Part shown: in pieces, positions 9,197 through 24,135 of the stretch
How positions within the stretch are numbered: the first letter of the stretch is position 1
Layout: each line of letters starts with the position of its first letter
Source of the DNA: a virus
DNA: 24,418 bases
Reading direction: 5' to 3' (one strand)
IMG/VR virus record: IMGVR_UViG_3300030108_000459
Coordinates: 304 to 24,721 of that record
The notes under the pieces: model-generated
Database searches by the model: none
What the model was told of the DNA's origin: nothing
The model's input: only the letters and a program-made list of their open reading frames with translations
Program-made: the position numbers and the translations under genes

Positions 9197-11293
9197 ATGG
9201 CAAACGATAAAGATTTTAAAGTAAATACAAGTATAAAACCTAAAAGATATCTTGAAACTTTGGGTACTATTACGTCAGGTACTGAAGGACCAAGTGGTAC
9301 ATTTAGTACAACACTTTATTCAGGCTCTGGTAGCAATCAAGATATTAATACTGGTATAGATTTATCAGGTAGTAATGAAGGTTTAGTTTGGACTAAAAGA
9401 AGAGATAGCACTGGTGATAATTTCTTTTTTGATACACTAAGAGGCACTGAAACTTTTTTATTAGCTAATAGCGTTAACAATGAAAAAGGACCATCTATAG
9501 CGTCTGCTCAAGATACTATAACAGCATTTAATAATAATGGTTTTACAACAGGGTCAAGCTCTAATACAAACAACAGTGCAGGTACTTTTTTAGCATGGAC
9601 CTTTAAATCTTCTGCTAATTTTTTTGATATAATGACTTATACAGGAAATGGAAGCAACAGAACTATTAGTCATAACTTAGGAGAATCTCCTGGTATGATT
9701 ATAACCAAAAGACGTAATTCAACTGGTAATTGGAATATATTTCATAGGTCTTTAGGTGCATCAAAATATATAATGTTACATAGTTCAGATGGTGAAAAAT
9801 CTCTTGGTACTATGTGGAATAATACAGTGCCTACTAGTACAGAGTGGTCTTTAGGAACTAGTGCTAATGTAAATGTAAGTTTTGGAACTTATATAGCTTA
9901 TGTTTTTGGTCATAATGATCACACTGTTCATTGTTCAAGTTACACAGGTGCAGGTAGTACTGATGTAACAGTTACAACTGGTTTTGAGCCTCAGTGGATA
10001 ATGATAAAAAAATCTTCTGCTGATGGTGATCAATGGATTATTTTTGATGATCAAAGAGGTATTGCAGGTAGTGGCGGTAATGATTCTAGACTTTTTGCTA
10101 ATCTTGATAACTCAGAAACAACTTCTACAGATTACATAGAAACTACATCATCAGGTTTTAAAGTTACAGGAACATCAGGAGATGTTGCAACTGATGGTGC
10201 TACTTATATTTATATGGCAATAGCTAAAACAGCAGATGTAGATAACTTAGATCTATCTACTGGCTCAGTATTTAATTATACACCTACTGCAAGTAAAAAA
10301 GTTAAAATAAGTAACCCTGCAGCATCAGGTACAAACTCTGGTGCTACTTTAATTTACAATGGTGGTACAACAGCTTCTTTTGATTTAGCTAATGCAAGCT
10401 ATGAAAGTAAAACATTAGATGTATCATCTCAAACTAATCAGCCTGCAGGTCTTGCATTTAAACATGATGGAACAAGACTGTTTTTGAATAGCGGCACAAT
10501 ATTTCAGTATGATTTAACTACACCTTTTGATATTTCAACAGCCTCTGTAGTAAGCGGATCATACACTGCAGGTGGATCTGGAGGATTAGTACTTAGTCCT
10601 GATGGTACTAAACTTTTCTATGCAGAAGCTGTCAATGACGGAATAGGAGAAGTAGCTCTTTCAACTCCTTTTGATCTTAGCACTGCTGTATCACCTGTAA
10701 CAACTTTTTTAGATACACAGCCTCAAGATGGTGGTACATTTGGTCTATGTTCTAATGAAGATGGCACTAAATTTTACATGGTTGGTTTTAATACAGATAC
10801 TGTATATCAATATAATTTAACTACAGGATTCGATCTTACCACAGCAAGTTTTGCAAATAAAAGTTTAAGTGTAAGCGCTCAAGATAATCTCCCTACAGCT
10901 GTTGCAATAAACACTGATGGAACTAAGCTTTTTGTTTTAGGTACAAGCGATAAAGTATATCAGTATAATTTATCAACACCTTTTGATGTTAGCACTGGAT
11001 CATTTGCTAGTGTTGAGTTTTCTGTTGCAAGTCAAGCTACTGGTCCACAAGGATTAGTTTTTGCAAATTCTGGTACAAAAATGTACGTTGCAGATACTAC
11101 TAATGATTCAATATTTCAGTATTCAGTTGGCAGTGGAGGTGTTAGTACAACATACCATAGTAGTATAAAATTTTCACGAGGCACAGCCCCTACTTCTCCT
11201 GCTTTAGGTGAAACAGATATAATTACATTTGATACAACAGATGGGGGTACAACTTACCTTGCATCTCATGCGATAGATGGGGCTAAAAAATAA
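9197..11293 (+). CDS. Accessory fibre / receptor-binding protein with propeller
   Basis: A 698-residue multi-domain beta-rich protein. Residues 1-20 (MANDKDFKVNTSIKPKRYLE) form a short anchor shared with the next two genes. Residues about 35-345 hold three repeats of a domain with YxGxGS, then a P/G-x-W/M-hydrophobic-K motif and WxxFDxxRG: GLVWTKRR, PGMIITKRR and GFEPQWIMIKK. I believe this repeat is catalogued as DUF7483. From residue 350 the cassette LDLSTGSVFNY begins. At about residues 400-645 there are five repeats of about 50 residues of the form xGLxFxxDGTKLFxx...xxxxYxLSTPFDxSTA, which look like beta-propeller blades. The last 50 residues (RGTAPTSP, then TTDGGTTYLA) finish the cassette. 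It probably binds a surface glycan or protein on the host. The ribosome-binding site is GGAGAG. Its TAA overlaps the next ATG by one base. Confidence 0.8.
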   Translation: MANDKDFKVNTSIKPKRYLETLGTITSGTEGPSGTFSTTLYSGSGSNQDINTGIDLSGSNEGLVWTKRRDSTGDNFFFDTLRGTETFLLANSVNNEKGPSIASAQDTITAFNNNGFTTGSSSNTNNSAGTFLAWTFKSSANFFDIMTYTGNGSNRTISHNLGESPGMIITKRRNSTGNWNIFHRSLGASKYIMLHSSDGEKSLGTMWNNTVPTSTEWSLGTSANVNVSFGTYIAYVFGHNDHTVHCSSYTGAGSTDVTVTTGFEPQWIMIKKSSADGDQWIIFDDQRGIAGSGGNDSRLFANLDNSETTSTDYIETTSSGFKVTGTSGDVATDGATYIYMAIAKTADVDNLDLSTGSVFNYTPTASKKVKISNPAASGTNSGATLIYNGGTTASFDLANASYESKTLDVSSQTNQPAGLAFKHDGTRLFLNSGTIFQYDLTTPFDISTASVVSGSYTAGGSGGLVLSPDGTKLFYAEAVNDGIGEVALSTPFDLSTAVSPVTTFLDTQPQDGGTFGLCSNEDGTKFYMVGFNTDTVYQYNLTTGFDLTTASFANKSLSVSAQDNLPTAVAINTDGTKLFVLGTSDKVYQYNLSTPFDVSTGSFASVEFSVASQATGPQGLVFANSGTKMYVADTTNDSIFQYSVGSGGVSTTYHSSIKFSRGTAPTSPALGETDIITFDTTDGGTTYLASHAIDGAKK
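10394..11130 (+). repeat. Five beta-propeller-like repeats
   Basis: These are five tandem units of about 48-53 codons. Each has a hydrophobic strand, a DGTKLF-type turn (HDGTRLF, PDGTKLF, EDGTKFY, TDGTKLF, NSGTKMY) and a closing YxLxTxFDxSTxS segment. The pattern is that of YVTN/NHL-like propeller blades. Whether the fold has five blades or recruits strands from the flanks needs a structure model. Confidence 0.7.
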
Positions 11294-11649
11294 TGGCTAA
11301 TGATAAAGACTTTGTTGTAAGTAAAGATGTAGAGATTGGTAAAGATAGTAAAGTTACTATTGGAACTATATCAAGCAACACTCTTGATTTATCTACAGGT
11401 AATTTTTTTACAGATACACCTGCAGGTGCGGTTACTTACACATTTAATAATCCAGGTACAGTACAAACATTTCAAATGAAACTTACTGGTGGAGCTTCAG
11501 CAGCAATTACGTGGCCTAACTCAGTAAAATATGAGGGTGGCACAGCACCTGTTGCACCTGGAAATGGTGAAATAGATACGCTAACATTTACGACAGATGA
11601 CGGTGGTACGACTTATATTGGTGTACTAACTGGTCATAATTTAAGCTAA
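11293..11649 (+). CDS. Minimal fibre-cassette protein
   Basis: A 118-residue protein coupled to the previous gene by a TAATG overlap. It starts MANDKDF like its upstream neighbour, and from about residue 32 consists almost entirely of the C-terminal cassette LDLSTGNFFTDTP, FNNPGT, ITWPNSVKYEGGTAP and TTDDGGTTYIG. That cassette type ends many phage tail-fibre proteins. With no domain between anchor and cassette it looks like a stripped-down relative of the flanking genes. It could be a small tip protein, a capping subunit that occupies the same attachment site, or the remnant of a larger fibre. Anchor and cassette are both intact and the reading frame is clean, so I treat it as a gene, not a pseudogene. 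Confidence 0.75.
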   Translation: MANDKDFVVSKDVEIGKDSKVTIGTISSNTLDLSTGNFFTDTPAGAVTYTFNNPGTVQTFQMKLTGGASAAITWPNSVKYEGGTAPVAPGNGEIDTLTFTTDDGGTTYIGVLTGHNLS

Positions 11650-11668
11650 TACTGGAGAGCGAAAGTAT

Positions 11669-12604
11669 ATGGCCACAACTAACTTTAAAATAAAAAACGG
11701 ATTGTTATCTAAAAGATACTTGCAAAATAAATCTGCTGTTAGTACTTCAAGTTTTACTACAGGAATAACCTCTCTTATTTTACAAACTACTGGAGATAAC
11801 AGTAGTTGGGTACAAAAAACAACAGATATTTCTGCGTATGGTGGGGCTACCGTAAGGCCAGTGTATTGGTATGATATGATTGCAAGTGTATTTACAGCAG
11901 ATCTGCAATTAGATAATATTGTTGTTGGTAACGAAACTTATACTTTTACCAATAATGCTACAGGTTGGCAAACTACCCAATCAAGCACAAATATAGGAAG
12001 TTATAGTGCTGCAAATTTTCATAATGTTGGAGCAGGTACAGCAGGAGGAAGAGTTTATAGAGACTCAGGAGGAACTCCTTCTAGTGGCACAGGATCTACC
12101 ACAGATGCAGATGGATCTAGTACTGGTCATTATTTATATTTTGAAACTTCATCTCCTGCTAACAGTTCATTTTATAATTTTCTTCTTAGAGGACCAGAAG
12201 TAACATTACCAATTAATAATCCTACTTGGAGTTGGTTTGAAAATAGAACAGGTACAAATGTGGGCAATCTTAATGCCTATCTTGATATTATAGGTGGTAC
12301 GACTGCAACTTTAGATTTAAGTCAAGGAAGTTATTTTACATTTTCATTAGGGTCATCAGTAACAGCAGTTTTTTCAAATCCACCTGCTTCAGGACCAGGA
12401 GGAATCCCCTCTAAAGCTTACTCTTTTGCTTTAGAAGTAGTAGCTTCGGGAGATTATACAATTACTTGGCCTGATTCAATAAAGTGGGAGGGTGGTAGTG
12501 CCCCTGCTAATACAGCGTCAGGGGCAACAGATTTGTATACATTTATAACAATCAATGGTGGTACTACGTACTTCGGTAAAAAAGCTTTAACAGGAGTATC
12601 ATAA
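11669..12604 (+). CDS. Accessory fibre protein with MAM-like sandwich domain
   Basis: A 311-residue protein. Residues 1-20 (MATTNFKIKNGLLSKRYLQ) resemble the anchor of the 698-residue protein (DFKVNTSIKPKRYLE). Residues about 30-210 look like a MAM/concanavalin-type beta-sandwich: SSWVQKTTDISAYGGATVR and ADLQLDNIVV first, then GHYLYFETSS, FLLRGPEVTLP and WSWFENRTGTNVGNLNAYL. The last about 95 residues are the shared cassette (LDLSQGSYFTF, FSNPP, ITWPDSIKWEGGSAP, NGGTTYFG). MAM-like domains bind glycans or other proteins, so a receptor-binding role is reasonable. GGAGAG (11654-11659) precedes the start. The leader closely resembles that of the 698-residue gene, consistent with duplication of the gene together with its start region. 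Confidence 0.75.
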   Translation: MATTNFKIKNGLLSKRYLQNKSAVSTSSFTTGITSLILQTTGDNSSWVQKTTDISAYGGATVRPVYWYDMIASVFTADLQLDNIVVGNETYTFTNNATGWQTTQSSTNIGSYSAANFHNVGAGTAGGRVYRDSGGTPSSGTGSTTDADGSSTGHYLYFETSSPANSSFYNFLLRGPEVTLPINNPTWSWFENRTGTNVGNLNAYLDIIGGTTATLDLSQGSYFTFSLGSSVTAVFSNPPASGPGGIPSKAYSFALEVVASGDYTITWPDSIKWEGGSAPANTASGATDLYTFITINGGTTYFGKKALTGVS

Positions 12605-14598
12605 TGTCACTTAGTAAAATGATAATGAGTCAGTCTGCAAATCAAGGCACAGGTGCAACTTTAGATGTAGATGATGTGTTTAGCACGTTTGTATATGACG
12701 GAACTGGTTCTGCACAAACGATTACAAACGACATTAATCTAAGTGGCGAAGGTGGATTGGTTTGGTCTAAAGCTAGAGACCAAGCATATGTTCATGGTTG
12801 GTATGACACAGAAAGAGGTATTTCAAAGTATCTTAATAGTGCATCAGCCTCTGGGCAACAATTAAACTTTAGCACTGAAGGCCTTAATGCGTTTAACAGT
12901 AATGGATTTACCCTAGGAACAAACAATGACGGTAGCAATGTTATAAACGCATCAGGAACGGAATATTGCACTTGGACATTCCGCCAAGCTCCTAAGTTTT
13001 TTGATATGGTTAAAGTAACAACAAGCTCTGGGACGAATACAATAAGTCACTCTTTAGGTCAAACTCCAGGCATGATTATATCAAAAGCTACTGGTTTTAG
13101 TAATCTGTGGTATGTTTGGCATAGATCAAATTCTACTGGTAATTTAGTTTTAAATAGTTCAAATGGAACATCATTTTTTACTGGCGCTATTTTTGGGAAT
13201 GGAATTTCAGAGGTTGTTCAGCCAACTTCTACTGAATTTACTTTTTATAGTGCGGGTGGAGAGCATATTTTTTATATTTTTGCTCACCACAACAATGATG
13301 GTGAGTTTGGGCCAAATCAAGACCAAGATATTATCAAGTGTGATAGTTATACTGGCAATGGTAGTAGCACTGGGCCAAGTGTTAATCTAGGATTTGAGCC
13401 TCAGTGGGTTATGGTAAAAAATTTAGATACCAACGGATATGGTTGGATTATATCCGATGCTATGAGAGGTTTTAATGTAACAGATACTGTAAATTTAGAA
13501 GCCAATTCCTCCGATTCTGAAACCACAGCCGATATCGGTCATTGGGCTGAACCTACATCGACAGGATTTAAATTAGTCAGTAATTCTGTCTCCTCAAATG
13601 CAAATGGCACAAATTATATTTACATGGCAATACGCAGAGGCCCACTAGCTGCACCTACTAGTGCAAGTCAAGTTTTTAATACAAACCCTGCCGTAGGTGC
13701 GTCTGGAAATTTAGGTCAACATAGGTCTGGTTTTCCTGTTGATTTTGCACTTCAAAAAGTAACAAACACTACTTCTGATTGGACAGCAGGGGCTAGATTA
13801 ATACAGAATAAAAGTTTACGTCCTAACGATACTAATCAACAATCTGACGCAACAAGCTTTAAATTTGATTATATGGATGGGTGGGGTACATCTAGTGCTG
13901 ATTCAGACAGAACTGCTTGGATGTGGAAACGTGCTCCTAAATATTTTGATGTAGTTGCTTATGACGGTAGTAGTAGTAACGCAACTTACAATCATAATTT
14001 AGGTATAGCTCCAGAAATGATGTGGGTAAAAGTTACAGATGGAACTACTGGCTATTGGGCTGTAGGGTCAAATTATTTAAGTAATGGAACTGGTTGGGAT
14101 AAAGAATTACGATTAAATGAGGCTACCCCTGAAGCAGCTACAAGCAAGTTTGATAATGCAAGTTCAGGTGGAACTGCGACAGCTCCTACAGCAACACAAT
14201 TTACTGTAAGGCCAGGTACAGGTGATGTTAATGATAGTGGAAAAACACACATAGCATTTTTGTTTGCTTCAATTTCAGGTATATGTAAAATAGGAAGTTA
14301 CACAGGTAATGGTTCTACACAAACTATAGATTGTGGATTTAGTAACGGTTCTAAACTTGTAATAGTTAAAAGAATTAGCACTGGTGCTAATGGCAATTGG
14401 GTTATTATGGATTCTGTTAGAGGTATAAATGCAGGTGACGATCCAACATTAAGTATAAATGTTACAAATCCAAATGACCCTTTTGATTTAATAAACCCAC
14501 AAAATTCTGGTTTTGAGGTAGAAGAACACAGTGGATCATCTGTTCACAAAATAAATACGAATGGTGTAACTTATCTCTTTTACGCTATTGCAGCATAA
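12604..14598 (+). CDS. Accessory fibre / receptor-binding protein, repeat-rich
   Basis: A 664-residue protein overlapping the previous stop by one base (TAATG), with AGGAG as ribosome-binding site. It lacks the MANDKDF anchor and starts MSLSKMIMSQSANQGTG. It is built from tandem repeats of the same domain as the 698-residue protein: GLVWSKARD, PGMIISKATG and GFEPQWVMVKN occur in the same order, then a degenerate unit (FALQKVTNTTSDW), then PEMMWVKVTDGTTGYW and KLVIVKRISTGANGNW near the C-terminus. Repeats end in a YIYMAIRR/HIAFLFA-type strand. No C-terminal cassette is present and it finishes with a repeat strand (TYLFYAIAA). It probably forms an extended receptor-binding arm. Partner and ligand cannot be told from sequence. 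Confidence 0.78.
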   Translation: MSLSKMIMSQSANQGTGATLDVDDVFSTFVYDGTGSAQTITNDINLSGEGGLVWSKARDQAYVHGWYDTERGISKYLNSASASGQQLNFSTEGLNAFNSNGFTLGTNNDGSNVINASGTEYCTWTFRQAPKFFDMVKVTTSSGTNTISHSLGQTPGMIISKATGFSNLWYVWHRSNSTGNLVLNSSNGTSFFTGAIFGNGISEVVQPTSTEFTFYSAGGEHIFYIFAHHNNDGEFGPNQDQDIIKCDSYTGNGSSTGPSVNLGFEPQWVMVKNLDTNGYGWIISDAMRGFNVTDTVNLEANSSDSETTADIGHWAEPTSTGFKLVSNSVSSNANGTNYIYMAIRRGPLAAPTSASQVFNTNPAVGASGNLGQHRSGFPVDFALQKVTNTTSDWTAGARLIQNKSLRPNDTNQQSDATSFKFDYMDGWGTSSADSDRTAWMWKRAPKYFDVVAYDGSSSNATYNHNLGIAPEMMWVKVTDGTTGYWAVGSNYLSNGTGWDKELRLNEATPEAATSKFDNASSGGTATAPTATQFTVRPGTGDVNDSGKTHIAFLFASISGICKIGSYTGNGSTQTIDCGFSNGSKLVIVKRISTGANGNWVIMDSVRGINAGDDPTLSINVTNPNDPFDLINPQNSGFEVEEHSGSSVHKINTNGVTYLFYAIAA

Positions 14599-14626: not shown

Positions 14627-15115
14627 ATGGGTGAATATAGACATAGAAAATCTGGAGTTGTAAAAACTCAAGGCGAGTGGAGAAAAGAATACTCTAATAC
14701 TTCTTTTCCTGCTGTTTGGACTCAAGATACGTTAGACTTTATGAAGTTAGACGCAGTGTTGCCTAGCCCTCCTGCTACAACAACAGCGTATCAAACAAGT
14801 GTACGTGATGGTGTTGAGCAAGATAGTAAAGGCAACTGGGTAGAAAAATATGTAGCCAAAGATATGTTTGCTGATGATGATGAACTTGGCACTAAGGCAG
14901 AGCAAGAAGCTGCATATCAGGCAAAGCTAGACGCTAACACCGCAGCAAGCCATAGATCTACTAGAGATAAAAAACTTGCAGAGACAGATTTCTATGCGTT
15001 GTCAGATGTAACAATGTCAGATAATATGAAAACATATAGACAAGCTCTACGTGATTTACCAACACATAAAAACTGGCCTAATCTAGAAGATGCAGATTGG
15101 CCCACTAAACCTTGA
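14627..15115 (+). CDS. Tail fibre assembly chaperone-like protein
   Basis: A 162-residue protein right after the fibre genes. The C-terminal 45 residues carry the pattern RDKKLAETDFYALSDV, YRQALRDLPTHKNWP and WPTKP. This matches the phage tail assembly chaperone-type domain (laesDw..lpD ... YRqaLRDi ... WPtkP) that usually sits beside fibre genes. The N-terminal 110 residues (YRHRKSGVVKTQGEWRK, VRDGVEQDSKGNWVEKYV) look like the companion segment of such proteins. It likely helps one of the upstream fibres fold or trimerise, or is itself a small tail-tip part. The start has AAAGGA about eight bases upstream. Confidence 0.7.
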   Translation: MGEYRHRKSGVVKTQGEWRKEYSNTSFPAVWTQDTLDFMKLDAVLPSPPATTTAYQTSVRDGVEQDSKGNWVEKYVAKDMFADDDELGTKAEQEAAYQAKLDANTAASHRSTRDKKLAETDFYALSDVTMSDNMKTYRQALRDLPTHKNWPNLEDADWPTKP

Positions 15116-15405: not shown

Positions 15406-18400
15406 ATGGCAATAGATTCAAAAAAACCAAAGCCAAGAGATGAAGAGAGATCAGCACTTCTAGCATCAGCAGCTAAAACAGCACAAGAAATGGCTGATGA
15501 TAATAATCCTAACGCTAGGGAAAGAGCACGAGAGATTGCAGCAGCAGAAGCTGCAGCCGATAGAGATGCACAATTATTGTCTGGAAATTATGGTGAAGCG
15601 GATCGGTTTAATCCTGTGCTCTATGGTGGAGGAAGTTATTCAGGTGGCTCAACCCTTAAACAAGCTACCCAAACTGATTTAAATAGATTTAAAGATGATA
15701 ATAGTAGAGGCTATGCTGTTTATGACAGTGTTACAGATGCAGATGGTAATCAATATGTAGCTGTGTCTGGTAAAAACTCTAGCTTTATTGAAAAAATAAG
15801 TCCTGATGGAACTGTTGAAAGAATAGATAACGTAAGTAGCAAAAAAGGTAAGAAAAACACTAACGTAAACAGAGTTCTTGGGGCCTTTGATAATTTAAAA
15901 TCAACATTAGATTTAAGTCAACCTAAACCCGAAGTAGATGATGATGTTGCAGACCCAGTAGACCCTACACCTGACCCTACTGATTTAGAACGTCTTCCTA
16001 TAGATGTAGGAGATGTTGTAGGTGGTCCTGCTCTGCCACCTGTATTTCAACCTGAGCCTGACCCTGATCCTGATCCTATAGATGTAGGAGATTTTGTTCC
16101 TACTGTTCCTGCAACAGATGTATTGGAGTTAGAGGCTGATGAAGTAGCCCCTATTAATCCTTCTGTTCCACAGACTGTTATTCAAGATGTAGCTCCTGTA
16201 ACATATCAGTCAGATCCTGTAAGTGTTGCACCTGCAACTTCTGGTTCAGGAACTCAAATTCCCTCAACAGGTACTTTTTCTGCACCTGTGCAAACAGCAG
16301 GTATTTCGGCTGTGCCCTCACAGGTGAGCTACAAAACACACTACGCAGGTACTGCAGGTGCTGTACCTCAAACACTTGTTACTACTGCACCAGGATTAGG
16401 ACAACAGTACACATCTGGTTATCAGACAGTATACTATAGAAATCAGTTAGGACAGCGTATACCCATTACTGAGTTTAATGGTAGACCTACTACTTACGTA
16501 CCACCAGGTTTTTATAAAGAGGTTACAAACCAACAACAAACAAATTCTGAATCTAAACCTGATTTAACACTTGTCCCTTTTGAATCTCAAGGTAGTCCTA
16601 ACGTGCAAGTACAATTACCAAGTACTCCTGTGCAAATGTTTGAAGGTGGAGATGTAATACTAGCTAGAAAATTTTTAGGGTTTGACGGTCCTCCTCAACA
16701 GCTTGATAATTTCTTACAAGCTAGTCCTGCTGCTGCTGCACGTATGGGTAAGTACAGACAAGCTATGACAGATATGGGTAAAATGCGTATGGGTGCTTCA
16801 CAGGGTACGGACGTTCGATTTCCTGACGGATCAAGCGATCAACCACCTGCAGATACTACTACAACACCTCCAGATCCAATGGCTCAGATGAGTGCTAATC
16901 TAGTCGGTCAAACAATGCAGCCAATGCAAGCCCCTACAAGTATGATAATGCCTACTGCAGGTGAGTTCATTCCAGTAGATGCAGGTCAGACTACACCTGT
17001 TGCTCCTATGGCTGATGCTGCTACTGTCGATACAGTACAATTAGCAGAGATGCCTACTAACGTAGGGGCAGTGACTGCTGACGCTACTGCTGTAGCTCCC
17101 GAAGTACAGGCAGAAACAGATAAGCTTGAAGCAGCCCAAGGTGAAGTCTCAAATATAATAGACGCTGCCCAACAAGAAACAAGTTCTGTTTCTGGAATGG
17201 AAGCTGCACAAGGGGAAGCTATAAAGGTAGATGGACCAACGGCTAGAAAACTAGAGACAGATCCTGTGACAGGTGAAAGTGAGCTTGTTTCTAGTGTGGC
17301 TAACGCTGAAACTGCTGCTGCTTTTGCTGAAGCAATAGAGGCTGAGACTGCTACTCCAAGTAAAAAAGCTACAGTTGCAGGTCAGTTAGAGGGGCTTATG
17401 GCTCAGTTTGAAGGTGGTAACACACCTGCTTGGGCTGCAGGATCTATGCGTACTGCGATGGCTACACTGGCTTCTCGTGGATTAGGTGCATCCAGTTTAG
17501 CAGGACAAGCTGTTATACAAGCTGCTATGGAGGCTGCTCTACCTATAGCTCAAATGGATGCCTCTACACAGGCACAGTTTGAAGCACAAAACCTATCTAA
17601 CAGACAGCAACGTGCAATGCTTGCTGCTCAACAACGTGCTACGTTTATAGGTCAGGAGTTTGATCAGGCATTTCAGGCTCGTGTAATTAACGCCTCTAAG
17701 ATTTCTGACATAGCTAACATGAACTTTACTGCTGAACAGCAGATAGCTCTAGAGGATTCTCGTGCAGCAAACACTATGGAGTTAGCTAACCTATCTAACA
17801 AACAAGCTATGGTAATGGCAGAGGCTGCTGCGTTGTCACAACTTGATATGGCTAACCTATCAAACAGACAGCAGACTGCTGTACAAAATGCAGCTAACTT
17901 TTTGCAGATGGACATGGCTAACTTGTCCAACCAACAGCAGACAGAAATGTTTAAGTCTCAACAAAACATTCAAGCTTTGTTTACTGATGCTGCTGCAGAA
18001 AATGCTTTTGCTCAATTTAACGCAGCAAATGAGAATCAAGTAAATCAATTCTTTGCAAGTCTGTCTAGTCAGACATCACAGTTTAACGCTACACAGCAGA
18101 ACGCTATGGATCAGTTTAACATAAACAGTGTCAACTCTTTACGTGAGTTTAACTCTGGGCTACAACAACAGCGTGATTTGTTTAACGCACAGAATGGTCT
18201 CGTAATAGCACAGGCTAATGCTCAGTGGAGACAGAATGTAGCAACTATCAACAACGCCACTCAGAATGAAAGCAACATGGCTTTTGCTCAGACTATAAAT
18301 GCTTTAACAGCTACTAACCTTGATGCAATATGGCAAAGAGAAAGAGATATATTGTCGATGGCTTTCCAAGTATCAGAGGGTAATGCTGACAGAGCTAACA

Positions 18401-18534
18401 GTATTATACTTCAGAAGATGGCAGGAGATAATAATATAGATGTTGCAGAGCTACAGGCTAAGATAGGTGCTGCTCAATCAAAAGGTAATTTTATTGCTGA
18501 AATGTTTAAGAAAATTATACCTTTACCATTTTAA
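15406..18534 (+). CDS. Large Gln/Asn/Ala-rich internal virion protein
   Basis: A 1042-residue protein of a type seen in marine phage virions. Residues 1-60 are charged and helical. About 180-260 is an Asp/Pro-rich linker with repeated IDVGD and DPDPDP. Around 420-465 is a small helical block (ARKFLGFDGPPQQLDNFLQA). Residues about 655-725 contain the conserved-looking stretch TPAWAAGSMRTAMATLASRG, then LGASSLAGQA and EAALPIA. From 795 to about 980 the sequence is built on an 11-residue helical repeat with NLSN(R/K)QQ and QFNxx motifs. No transmembrane helix or enzyme motif is visible, though the C-terminal 12 residues are hydrophobic (FKKIIPLPF). It could be an ejection-apparatus protein or a long helical core element. 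AAGGAAT precedes the start. Family function unknown; virion role is inferred from context. Confidence 0.7.
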   Translation: MAIDSKKPKPRDEERSALLASAAKTAQEMADDNNPNARERAREIAAAEAAADRDAQLLSGNYGEADRFNPVLYGGGSYSGGSTLKQATQTDLNRFKDDNSRGYAVYDSVTDADGNQYVAVSGKNSSFIEKISPDGTVERIDNVSSKKGKKNTNVNRVLGAFDNLKSTLDLSQPKPEVDDDVADPVDPTPDPTDLERLPIDVGDVVGGPALPPVFQPEPDPDPDPIDVGDFVPTVPATDVLELEADEVAPINPSVPQTVIQDVAPVTYQSDPVSVAPATSGSGTQIPSTGTFSAPVQTAGISAVPSQVSYKTHYAGTAGAVPQTLVTTAPGLGQQYTSGYQTVYYRNQLGQRIPITEFNGRPTTYVPPGFYKEVTNQQQTNSESKPDLTLVPFESQGSPNVQVQLPSTPVQMFEGGDVILARKFLGFDGPPQQLDNFLQASPAAAARMGKYRQAMTDMGKMRMGASQGTDVRFPDGSSDQPPADTTTTPPDPMAQMSANLVGQTMQPMQAPTSMIMPTAGEFIPVDAGQTTPVAPMADAATVDTVQLAEMPTNVGAVTADATAVAPEVQAETDKLEAAQGEVSNIIDAAQQETSSVSGMEAAQGEAIKVDGPTARKLETDPVTGESELVSSVANAETAAAFAEAIEAETATPSKKATVAGQLEGLMAQFEGGNTPAWAAGSMRTAMATLASRGLGASSLAGQAVIQAAMEAALPIAQMDASTQAQFEAQNLSNRQQRAMLAAQQRATFIGQEFDQAFQARVINASKISDIANMNFTAEQQIALEDSRAANTMELANLSNKQAMVMAEAAALSQLDMANLSNRQQTAVQNAANFLQMDMANLSNQQQTEMFKSQQNIQALFTDAAAENAFAQFNAANENQVNQFFASLSSQTSQFNATQQNAMDQFNINSVNSLREFNSGLQQQRDLFNAQNGLVIAQANAQWRQNVATINNATQNESNMAFAQTINALTATNLDAIWQRERDILSMAFQVSEGNADRANSIILQKMAGDNNIDVAELQAKIGAAQSKGNFIAEMFKKIIPLPF
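17788..18342 (+). repeat. Hendecad (11-residue) protein repeats
   Basis: From residue 795 the protein can be cut into 11-residue units: NLSNKQAMVMA, EAAALSQLDMA, NLSNRQQTAVQ, NAANFLQMDMA, NLSNQQQTEMF. After a two-residue phase shift it continues from residue 870 as QFNAANENQVN, QFFASLSSQTS, QFNATQQNAMD, QFNINSVNSLR, EFNSGLQQQRD, LFNAQNGLVIA, and weaker units to about residue 980. Eleven-residue periodicity is the mark of long straight or right-handed coiled helices. Confidence 0.75.
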
Positions 18535-20790: not shown

Positions 20791-23700
20791 ATGAGCACTT
20801 ACGTACAAAAAGCACCTGACTCTAGTTTTATTGATCTCGTTGAGGATGACGATTTCAAAAGAGACTTAGTTAGATTTTTTAGTGGTGGTAGATATAAATA
20901 TACTAAAGACCAAATAAAAGAAATGGGTTTTGAAAATCTCACCAAAGATTTTATAGAACACATGAGAGCACAATCAGTCAACGAAGTTACCGCTACAAAA
21001 GATTTAAACTATGTTCGCAACAAAGACTTCAGCTACAAAGGTAAACAAGCTTTTGGTAGGCTGACCCAGGCGTGGGATAATTCTAAAGACGCAGGTACAG
21101 GTTTCTTTGATGGTCTTGGAGACTTTGCAGAGGGTGTTATTACTGCACCATCTACTTACTTGGGGTTTGCTAGTTTTGGTCTTGGAAAAGTTGGGGCTAA
21201 AGTAGCATCTAAAGGTGTTCAGTTAGCTGTCAGAGCAGGTCTGAAAGAAACTCTAAAAAAGAATGTAGTTAAGTCCTCTATAGCGAGACAGTCTGTAAAA
21301 GACGCAGGTACAGGTGCAGTAACTGGTGCTGCTGTCTCTGGGTTTCAGGGTAAACAACAAGGTGAAACTAGAGAAGAACTTGGAGTAGGCCCAGAATACA
21401 CAACAAAAGATTTAATCTTTGACTCTACTGTGGGTGCTGTAACTGAAGGAACTTTTGGTGCAGCCACAGGTTACATCTCTGGTTTTGTAGGTAGAGGTAG
21501 AGCTAAAAAAGTAGACGATGTAATGTTGGAGAGAAACACTACATTTAAACAACAGGCAGAAGAGGCTGCTAAAAAATCTCTTGGAACTATAAAGGCTGCT
21601 TCAGACGCTGAGAAGAAACAAGCTATGAATATTGTAGCTGATGTAGAAGATATATTGTCTGCTCGTGCAGGAGTAAAAGGCGCTAAGATAAAAGCCAGAT
21701 TAGATCCTGAACGTGTAGCCAAAGGTAGAGCTATTCTCAACGCAATGTCAGATCCAAAAGCAAACCCAGAGTTTAGTTCTGGTCTTTCAGTGCAAACAAT
21801 GAGAGGTATTGCTGCTGCTAGTATAGACCTCATGAGAGAGTTGAAGCTAGATACAAAGAGTGGTGACATCAGGATTACTGAAGCTATAGCTAACAAGTTG
21901 AGAGATGGAGAAGGCCAGGAAGTATTTACAATACTCAAGGATGTAAAAGATAAGTATGGTCTTTCTAAAGATGAGTTCTCTATGATCTACTTATCTGAGG
22001 TATCAAGAGCAGGTCAAACACTAGGGTTTCAAAGTGCCATAAAACGTGGTGCGAAGATAGATATGGATAAAGCATCTGATATAGATGTTTTGTTTTCTAA
22101 AGGTGCTTCATCTATCAGCAGTCAAGACGCACAGGAAATATCTGCAGCAGCAGTTAGAAATTCTAAGGGTGGTGTTTACAAGTTCTTGCAGGATTTAGAC
22201 ACCATGAGAATATCTTTTATGACTTCTCAACCTGCTACTACAATGCGTAACTTGACTAACGTAGGTATCCTTATTGGAACAGATATGGTAGACCAAGTTA
22301 ACAAGGCTATCTACAAAGGGATTACTGGTGACGCATCTCAAATAAAAACTTTTATACCTAACATGACATCAGTTATCAGAGGTCTTTCTTTTAACAACAC
22401 AGAAGCAAAGATACTAAGACAGATTATGTTAGAGGAAATGCCAGAGCAGTCCATGCGCTTGTACAATCAAGCCATGAGACTAGAAGTCGGTATGGAAAGC
22501 AGTGGAGCTTTAGCCAAGATAGGTAGATTCGTGAACATGGCTAACACTCTTTCTGATTCTGTTTTTAAAGAGGGTATCTTCTATGGATCTCTAGAGAGGC
22601 AGTTCAGAGACAAAGGTATGTCGATGTCTGATTGGTTAAGGACTAACACTAAGTTAGAGGATCTACCAGAGGGTATAGACATAAACCTTGCCGTTGATGA
22701 CGCAAACAGACTTACTATGCAGAGAGATTTTAGGGGTGCTGATTCTGTACTAGCAAGCACAACAAGAGGGTTAGTAAACTTAAATAGAAAAGTACCATTC
22801 CTGGTTTCAGCAGCAGCAGGTGTTCCCTTCCCAAGATATTTAGGTAATCACTTACAGATGGTATCTGACTACGCTCCTGTTCTTGGAGAGATGTTACACA
22901 GATCAGGTCTGACTGAAGGTGCTAAAGATGATGCCACTAGGTATGCACGTCAAGCCACTGGAGCTATGATGTTGTTTGCAGGGTATCAGATAGCTAAAGA
23001 TAGAGATGGTGAGGTTGATTACGGATCAATAAAGAATGAGCTAGGAGCACAAGAGGATCTTAAACCTTTACTAGGTGCTGCCATGTTTCATATGTATCTA
23101 GGTGATCAGGCATGGAGGTATGAGAATGGTCTTCCTACTTCTTTTGACAACACAGATCAGTTGAAGAGAGACTTACAAGATGTCCTTGGTGGAATACCAG
23201 AGTTTTCTTTTGATCTTGGTATCCCTGTTGCAATATTAGATGCTGCAGCAAAACAAGAAATAACACCAGATTTAGAGAAAAAGTTTGGAGATTTCTTAGC
23301 TACATTTACGATGCCAGGTGCGATAGCTAGAGACTTGATAGGACAGGCAGACTATGATCAAGCAGGTAATCCTTACACCAGAGAACTAGCACTTACAGAT
23401 GATGTTAAACTAGACTACAGTGGTGCTGAGATGACTAACAGAGCACTGAGGATGTTACCTGATGTAAGATCTGTGCAGTACTTACAGTCTTTCAATGATG
23501 AGACAGACATTGCTTACTATGACTTTGACAACCCTGTAGCTAGAGGTAAAGTAAACCCTGCTCTAAAACAGATTACTGGTAGAACAGCAGAGCCACCGTT
23601 GACATCACTACAAAAAGAAATGTCTAGGTACAATCTAAAGAACTGGCAGATATATGGAAGCACTGCAACAAAGAGTGCTAACATTGATCTTGTGTTGAGG

Positions 23701-24135
23701 GAGAGACTAGCTAAGTCAATGTACAAAGACTTTGAAGACTGGAAGTCTAAAGCACCTGCTTCAAAGAAATATGGAGAGATGACTTACGATGAGATTGTAG
23801 CTAGTGATAGTATCTCTAACTTAGACAAAGCCAATCTTCTTGAGGGTTGGATTAGAAAGAAAATAAGAAAAGAGAAAGAACAAGTCGAGGCTTTGTTTGA
23901 TTCTTTTGTAGCTGAGAGTCCAGTAAAAGCTAGAGGCTATATCAGAAACAACTACATAATTTATTCTAAGGGTAAAGAGGGTAAACAAAACTTAGACACT
24001 GCTGCACAAACCCTTGGGTTCAATACAGCAGATGAATACTTGGCTGAGTCTGAAACTATATCAGATGAATTAACAAGAAGAATGAAACTTCTAGCCATAG
24101 TTCCAAACATACGAGAGAACGAACCGTATGACTAA
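20791..24135 (+). CDS. Very large internal/ejection protein (T7 gp16-like position)
   Basis: A 1114-residue protein starting directly after the previous stop. The first 60 residues are charged. About residues 100-240 contain two Gly/Ala-rich hydrophobic blocks (GLGDFAEGVITAPSTYLGFA; GAVTGAAVSGF; GAVTEGTFGAATGYISGF) of the sort found in phage ejection proteins that insert into membranes. The remaining about 870 residues are mainly helical with few striking motifs (RISFMTSQPATTMRNLTNVG; LNRKVPFLVSAAAGVPFPRY; MLFAGYQIAKDRDGEVDYG). T7 gp16 is 1318 residues and carries an N-terminal transglycosylase. No lysozyme-like domain is seen here, and the phage has a separate lysozyme gene close by. It probably forms part of the internal core and the DNA-translocation channel. 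It is the last plus-strand gene and is followed by a strong terminator. Confidence 0.72.
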   Translation: MSTYVQKAPDSSFIDLVEDDDFKRDLVRFFSGGRYKYTKDQIKEMGFENLTKDFIEHMRAQSVNEVTATKDLNYVRNKDFSYKGKQAFGRLTQAWDNSKDAGTGFFDGLGDFAEGVITAPSTYLGFASFGLGKVGAKVASKGVQLAVRAGLKETLKKNVVKSSIARQSVKDAGTGAVTGAAVSGFQGKQQGETREELGVGPEYTTKDLIFDSTVGAVTEGTFGAATGYISGFVGRGRAKKVDDVMLERNTTFKQQAEEAAKKSLGTIKAASDAEKKQAMNIVADVEDILSARAGVKGAKIKARLDPERVAKGRAILNAMSDPKANPEFSSGLSVQTMRGIAAASIDLMRELKLDTKSGDIRITEAIANKLRDGEGQEVFTILKDVKDKYGLSKDEFSMIYLSEVSRAGQTLGFQSAIKRGAKIDMDKASDIDVLFSKGASSISSQDAQEISAAAVRNSKGGVYKFLQDLDTMRISFMTSQPATTMRNLTNVGILIGTDMVDQVNKAIYKGITGDASQIKTFIPNMTSVIRGLSFNNTEAKILRQIMLEEMPEQSMRLYNQAMRLEVGMESSGALAKIGRFVNMANTLSDSVFKEGIFYGSLERQFRDKGMSMSDWLRTNTKLEDLPEGIDINLAVDDANRLTMQRDFRGADSVLASTTRGLVNLNRKVPFLVSAAAGVPFPRYLGNHLQMVSDYAPVLGEMLHRSGLTEGAKDDATRYARQATGAMMLFAGYQIAKDRDGEVDYGSIKNELGAQEDLKPLLGAAMFHMYLGDQAWRYENGLPTSFDNTDQLKRDLQDVLGGIPEFSFDLGIPVAILDAAAKQEITPDLEKKFGDFLATFTMPGAIARDLIGQADYDQAGNPYTRELALTDDVKLDYSGAEMTNRALRMLPDVRSVQYLQSFNDETDIAYYDFDNPVARGKVNPALKQITGRTAEPPLTSLQKEMSRYNLKNWQIYGSTATKSANIDLVLRERLAKSMYKDFEDWKSKAPASKKYGEMTYDEIVASDSISNLDKANLLEGWIRKKIRKEKEQVEALFDSFVAESPVKARGYIRNNYIIYSKGKEGKQNLDTAAQTLGFNTADEYLAESETISDELTRRMKLLAIVPNIRENEPYD

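Follow-up and report, generated by a model that had tools for sequence, protein, structure and literature searches.

A five-bladed propeller nested in a split C-terminal cassette of a marine phage tail-fibre-like protein, a putative exchangeable receptor-binding head

Can a complete folded domain be placed inside a loop of another domain in a phage fibre protein? This question is raised by a gene located in the window (the whole stretch of 24,418 nucleotides that was analysed), which is part of a 26.6-kb virus record. In its product of 698 amino acids (aa), the first-pass annotation had proposed that one domain sits within a loop of a second, with five propeller-like repeats separating the two parts of a C-terminal fibre cassette. 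Over approximately its full length, the major capsid protein encoded in the window shares 80.7% identity with its counterpart in Roseobacter phage CRP-9 and 70.8% with the one in Puniceispirillum phage HMO-2011, and on this basis the window was assigned to an HMO-2011-type marine phage.

Four consecutive fibre-like genes (698, 118, 311 and 664 aa) occupy positions 9197-14598 and are followed by a fibre-assembly-like gene (Table 1). The best PHROG tail-fibre matches of the 118- and 311-aa proteins had E-values of 3.8e-9 and 5.6e-12, respectively, and belonged to families of the 9017, 7760 and 19200 type. The split cassette halves of the 698-aa protein had no PHROG match and were matched only by the HMMs built in this analysis, and no cassette was seen in the 664-aa protein. 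The 311-aa paralogue contains another domain before its cassette (residues 138-207) with only a weak match to MAM (E 0.012), and two large proteins of 1114 aa (20791-24135) and 1042 aa (15406-18534) were without PHROG match.

Table 1. Features of the fibre gene cluster, in window coordinates. Locus numbers (L) denote relatives.
Feature	Position	Strand	Basis
Tail-fibre-like protein of 698 aa with two putative module slots, both filled	9197..11293	+	Closed ORF; PHROG virion structural/tail fibre matches; orthologues L090-L095, L137
Occupant of putative slot 1 (N-slot), DUF7483, residues 32-344	9290..10228	+	Pfam PF24299, E 7.9e-61
Cassette first half, residues 351-391, up to and including the first strand of the split hairpin	10247..10369	+	N-half HMM, 53 bits at 350-389; predicted strands 348-352, 358-361, 367-372, 381-389
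Insert footprint, DNA without counterpart in the empty L095 gene	10346..11142	+	blastn: HSPs interrupted between window 10345 and 11143
Nested five-bladed propeller, residues 393-648	10373..11140	+	Five repeat units; 20 predicted strands; 1l0q profile and Foldseek matches
Cassette second half, residues 650-698 (STTYHSSIKF...DGGTTYLASHAIDG)	11144..11290	+	C-half HMM, 67 bits at 651-694; predicted strands
118-aa paralogue, cassette slot empty	11293..11649	+	Cassette family A4; PHROG tail fibre 9017, E 3.8e-9
Empty insertion site in the 118-aa protein, its TGGAS hairpin turn	11485..11499	+	Between half-HMM matches; in alignments opposite the point where nested homologues have their insert
311-aa paralogue with a different N-slot domain; cassette at about 12290-12601 with empty hairpin slot	11669..12604	+	Alignments A1, A4; PHROG tail fibre matches
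664-aa fibre-like protein with two DUF7483 stretches	12604..14598	+	PF24299, E 1.5e-71
Tail fibre assembly-like protein adjoining the fibre genes	14627..15115	+	PHROG 8716 / 4912 tail fibre (assembly), E 4e-14 / 2e-13

The motifs on which the split had been proposed were all found at their expected positions, namely LDLSTGSVFNY at residue 351 (nt 10247), ISNPAASG at 371 (nt 10307), SSIKFSRGTAP at 655 and TTDGGTTY at 680, and five repeats lie between them (residues 402-448, 450-496, 502-549, 553-600 and 604-647). In the 118- and 311-aa proteins the cassette is indeed unbroken (LDLSTG...FNNP...ITWP.S(V/I)K.EGG...DGGTTY). Using HMMs for the two half-cassettes, each built from several proteins, we confirmed that residues 350-395 include the first part of the cassette, and 261 residues separate the two half-HMM matches.

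Relatives were collected by scanning IMG/VR with alignments, which yielded at least 580 relatives for the propeller and 315 and at least 552 for two cassette alignments, the best 80 of each being kept. A viral contig scan with the single protein as query detected no relatives, while the alignment-based scan succeeded. The gap between the cassette halves was then measured with the split-half HMMs in 276 distinct cassettes from 260 loci. It was empty in 179, of propeller size (240-296 aa) in 85, of 316-345 aa (DUF7483) in 10 and of approximately 525 aa (ten units) in two; fetching of loci biases these proportions, and leaves the discreteness of the classes and their common insertion point unaffected. 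No gap of 31-239 aa was observed among the 276 cassettes. All five units were recognised in 78 of the 85 propeller-sized inserts, and only one or two units in three others (L042, L253 and L255). The presence of DUF7483 inside the hairpin was confirmed by Pfam for proteins of L137 and L157. Thus, 84 other distinct cassettes are split at the same hairpin by an insert of propeller size. Most of these relatives are metagenome assemblies, in which single contigs could be chimeric, whereas the isolates ICBM2 and the CRP phages are not metagenomic. An assembly artefact as the general explanation was rejected because the same nesting is present in isolate ICBM2. Across these relatives, the hairpin acts as a slot for alternative occupants.

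The closest view of such a slot is provided by orthologues of the 698-aa gene itself. The L095 orthologue is uninterrupted, and that of L092 has a propeller added at one hairpin, which bears out the proposal of a domain nested in a loop. At the DNA level the two genes share 97% identity as far as the codons that precede the hairpin strand and 91% beyond it, and differ essentially by an insert of about 830 nt; the junction was smeared in a global DNA alignment and resolved by local blastn. The split bounds suggested earlier (approximately residues 395 and 650) are close to the refined DNA junctions of the 698-aa gene relative to L095, which lie at residue 383 (SGA) and residue 650. The end of a terminator-like stem-loop of nine pairs (AGCATCAGG...TCTGGTGCT, window 10321-10345) coincides exactly with the upstream insert junction. 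It was not accepted as a meaningful signal, since stems of this kind are as common after shuffling of the sequence (3 found against 2.4 expected). Since the split recurs in 84 other cassettes and the nearest insert-free orthologues align across the junction, it is more than a chance feature of the 698-aa protein.

Structure prediction of the single chain agreed with this arrangement. The AlphaFold2 model of residues 345-698, based on alignment A5 (72 rows comprising the window and fetched loci), had a pLDDT of 92.7 and a pTM of 0.85. Its confidence was high in the propeller (pLDDT mostly 92-98, twenty strands) as well as in the two halves of the cassette (eight strands). A single-sequence AlphaFold2 run on the same residues gave nothing useful (pLDDT 34.5), which counts in favour of a rival explanation, that the halves are two unrelated linkers beside an in-line propeller rather than one split domain. 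However, the model based on the alignment folds each half with confidence, and the halves are contiguous and co-linear in the 179 empty cassettes, including L095, where the same gene is free of inserts. We consider the linker explanation extremely unlikely, and a C-terminal cassette split at a beta-hairpin by a nested propeller is supported. In a mean-field covariation analysis of the 276 cassettes, the top pair was a cross-half one, linking Leu in LDLSTG with Tyr in GGTTY, which ranked 106th among filled cassettes; cross-half pairs were not enriched overall among the 35 listed covariation pairs, and this signal was regarded as no more than suggestive. The top Foldseek match in PDB was 1l0q (E 2.7e-9), together with YVTN and other propellers; TM-scores to 1l0q were near 0.4, the sizes being different and the query also containing the cassette. 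The best viral structural match was gp51 of Lentibacter phage ICBM2, with a TMq of 0.76 over 371 columns.

The nested module was further characterised through its repeats. Each unit consists of strands A (GLAFKPDG), B (KMYVVG), C (DTVYQYSLST) and D (ASYDSVSFSV). The module opens on a D strand and its last strand is a C strand, an order that fits 1+3 closure (one N-terminal strand pairing with three C-terminal ones), and in the predicted model the N-terminal strand of the propeller (401-408) would complete blade 5. The propeller profile A2 matched the solved YVTN propeller PDB 1l0q with an E-value of 2.8e-16. Whole arrays in the collection comprised 229 of five units and 13 of 10, 15 or 20, and a further 19 whole-looking arrays scored one to four units, which apparently reflects a missed divergent unit or the splitting of an array. 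Long arrays occurred in multiples of five, with 20 units in L041 and L066, 15 in L023, 25 in L048 (cut) and 10 in L031, L039 and L057. They are consistent with strings of complete five-bladed rings.

Orthologues of the 698-aa gene also differ in the state of a second position, located before the cassette. In a well-supported set of eight cassettes including that of the window, the hairpin contains a propeller in six, DUF7483 in one and nothing in one. Naming the occupant of the upstream slot (slot 1) and then that of the hairpin (slot 2), the combinations are empty/empty in L095 (126 aa), empty/propeller in L092 (392 aa), empty/another propeller in L091, DUF7483/propeller in the window, propeller/propeller in L090 and L094 (likewise in L093, which is incomplete at the contig end) and DUF7483/DUF7483 in L137. 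In L030:720-1871, which is less closely related, slot 1 of the orthologue contains a propeller and slot 2 nothing. Counterparts of the neighbouring 118-aa protein have a slot filled with either a propeller (L022:3797 and L054:2815) or DUF7483 (L137:2861 and L157:1786). Parsimony on the cassette tree required 37 slot-state changes, at least 11 of which are empty-versus-filled changes forced by well-supported branches, the tree being built on few columns and not distinguishing gain from loss.

The same propeller family was found in several other contexts, including an fn3-like domain, three positions in CRP fibres, protein C-termini and a position before the cassette. The fn3-like case was observed in L047 and three others, in which Pfam fn3 matched after the propeller (E 3e-9) and the first strands were recognised by eye before it. 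In the propeller tree these contexts are mixed, with 103 changes among eight contexts versus a minimum of 7 and 126 for shuffled labels. Fibre-like proteins of Roseobacter phages CRP-2, CRP-9, CRP-13 and CRP-738 resemble the 698-aa protein in having this propeller family plugged in, three times per protein in CRP-2, CRP-9 and CRP-13, although their scaffold is different and does not contain the same cassette. In CRP-738, residues 517-662 of gp33 (L005) correspond to Laminin_G_3 where CRP-2, CRP-9 and CRP-13 have the second propeller; this phage was isolated on a different host strain (FZCC0089 vs FZCC0023). In the 484-kb phage record LR756508, a protein (L008:964-8187) contains a propeller nested in yet another fibre scaffold with TTDDLAEG...LYYT repeats, and TnpB/IS605-type-like ORFs were recognised by eye on both sides of its gene. 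With a single propeller as query, relatives were also detected at 11 Pelagibacteraceae genome loci (L171 and L173-L182). In the two that were inspected, L171 and L177, the protein has a signal-peptide-like start and a propeller relative, and its long C-terminal part resembles, by eye, an autotransporter barrel. It is possible that the Pelagibacter proteins are cellular relatives or the source of the phage propeller module.

These distributions bear on the direction of change. As gain and loss are not polarised by the trees, the filled form might be ancestral and all empty forms deletions, with loss only and no exchangeable socket. However, close orthologues (the window, L091, L094, L090 and L137) carry two unrelated folds, as well as propellers of clearly different sequence, at one and the same site, and loss alone does not explain why the propeller family also resides in fn3-like loops, CRP fibres and C-terminal positions. 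We therefore regard loss alone as very unlikely. In the exchange that we propose instead, whole modules may be gained, lost and swapped between phages, and the route would probably be recombination in the conserved flanks.

Taken together, we propose that the 698-aa protein, part of a tail fibre or of its tip, serves as a scaffold offering two slots for modules, and that it may also trimerise. Slot 1 would lie between an N-terminal anchor (MANDKDFKV...) and the cassette and is here occupied by DUF7483; slot 2 would be the turn of one cassette beta-hairpin, holding a complete five-bladed YVTN-type propeller. Because the first strand of the module is the outer one (D) of a blade and its last is the third one (C) of that blade, the ends of the propeller should be neighbours at a C-D turn, and such adjacent ends could take the place of a hairpin turn and leave the host domain undisturbed. 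In propellers generally, the D-A and B-C loops are located on one face and the A-B and C-D turns on the other. Over 1228 distinct units, positions in the D-A and B-C loops had an average entropy of approximately 2.7 bits, compared with roughly 1.25 bits in the A-B and C-D turns. Attached at the C-D turn, the propeller would thus have its conserved face against the cassette and its variable face pointing out. Most likely, the propeller would stand on the tip with its variable face towards the host surface, acting as an exchangeable receptor-binding head.

A different function could be assigned to a nested propeller, such as a structural role or enzymatic trimming, for instance by an activity resembling that of lactonases or hydrolases. 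Enzymes are commonly built on propellers, and Pfam reported SGL and lactonase-type matches, although the SGL match spans repeat-like stretches only. Moreover, the slot of orthologues is either empty or filled with the unrelated DUF7483, and thus no fixed activity is required at this position. We consider such a role unlikely.

A precedent for host binding is provided by Staphylococcus phage phi11, whose receptor-binding protein Gp45 contains a five-bladed propeller in which the N-terminal strand joins the last blade, and for which a GlcNAc-binding cavity at the propeller has been proposed (PMC4901313). The Gp45 propeller is placed in-line between stem and tower in a stem-platform-tower architecture, whereas that of the 698-aa protein is nested in the cassette hairpin, and the available text describes no exchange with other folds at the propeller site. 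No sequence relation between Gp45 and the 698-aa propeller was detected. The YVTN propeller of PDB 1l0q, from an archaeal surface-layer protein, belongs to the same repeat family and has a similar fold; it is a cellular surface protein, whereas the propeller described here is a nested phage module. The nearest counterpart is gp51 of Lentibacter phage vB_LenP_ICBM2 (AYP28110.1), an isolate protein annotated as hypothetical, in which a five-unit propeller is nested in the same kind of cassette, although DUF7483 is absent in front of it and the cassette sequence has strongly diverged.

An exchangeable host-binding head is favoured by the predicted outward position of the variable face, the fibre context, the phi11 precedent and the module exchange. 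Judged from its position, variability and precedent, a receptor-binding role of the propeller is likely, and we hold the overall proposal, a two-slot fibre scaffold with the nested, exchangeable propeller as receptor-binding head, to be probable with good confidence. A broader proposal, towards which we lean with more reserve, is that fibre tips of marine phages use the hairpin turn as a dedicated socket, at which structurally unrelated heads with adjacent ends (five-bladed propellers, ten-blade doublets and DUF7483 domains) would be recombined in and out independently of the upstream slot, retargeting adsorption.

Binding domains of phage receptor-binding proteins are known to be swapped between phages while the anchor is conserved, and their diversity usually arises from swaps of the C-terminal end or from mutation of loops. 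In contrast, the exchange site of the present family lies inside a hairpin, leaving both protein ends unchanged. The folds themselves are already known, and we found no description of nested, exchangeable propellers in phage fibres in the open-access literature; within that literature, the new element is the nested, exchangeable arrangement in a fibre family. Entire folded domains are apparently exchanged inside one hairpin while the ends of the protein remain constant. The natural near-isogenic pairs with and without the insert offer a simple way to examine what these heads bind, and the split cassette is a recognisable signature by which many marine phage fibre genes labelled 'hypothetical' could be annotated.
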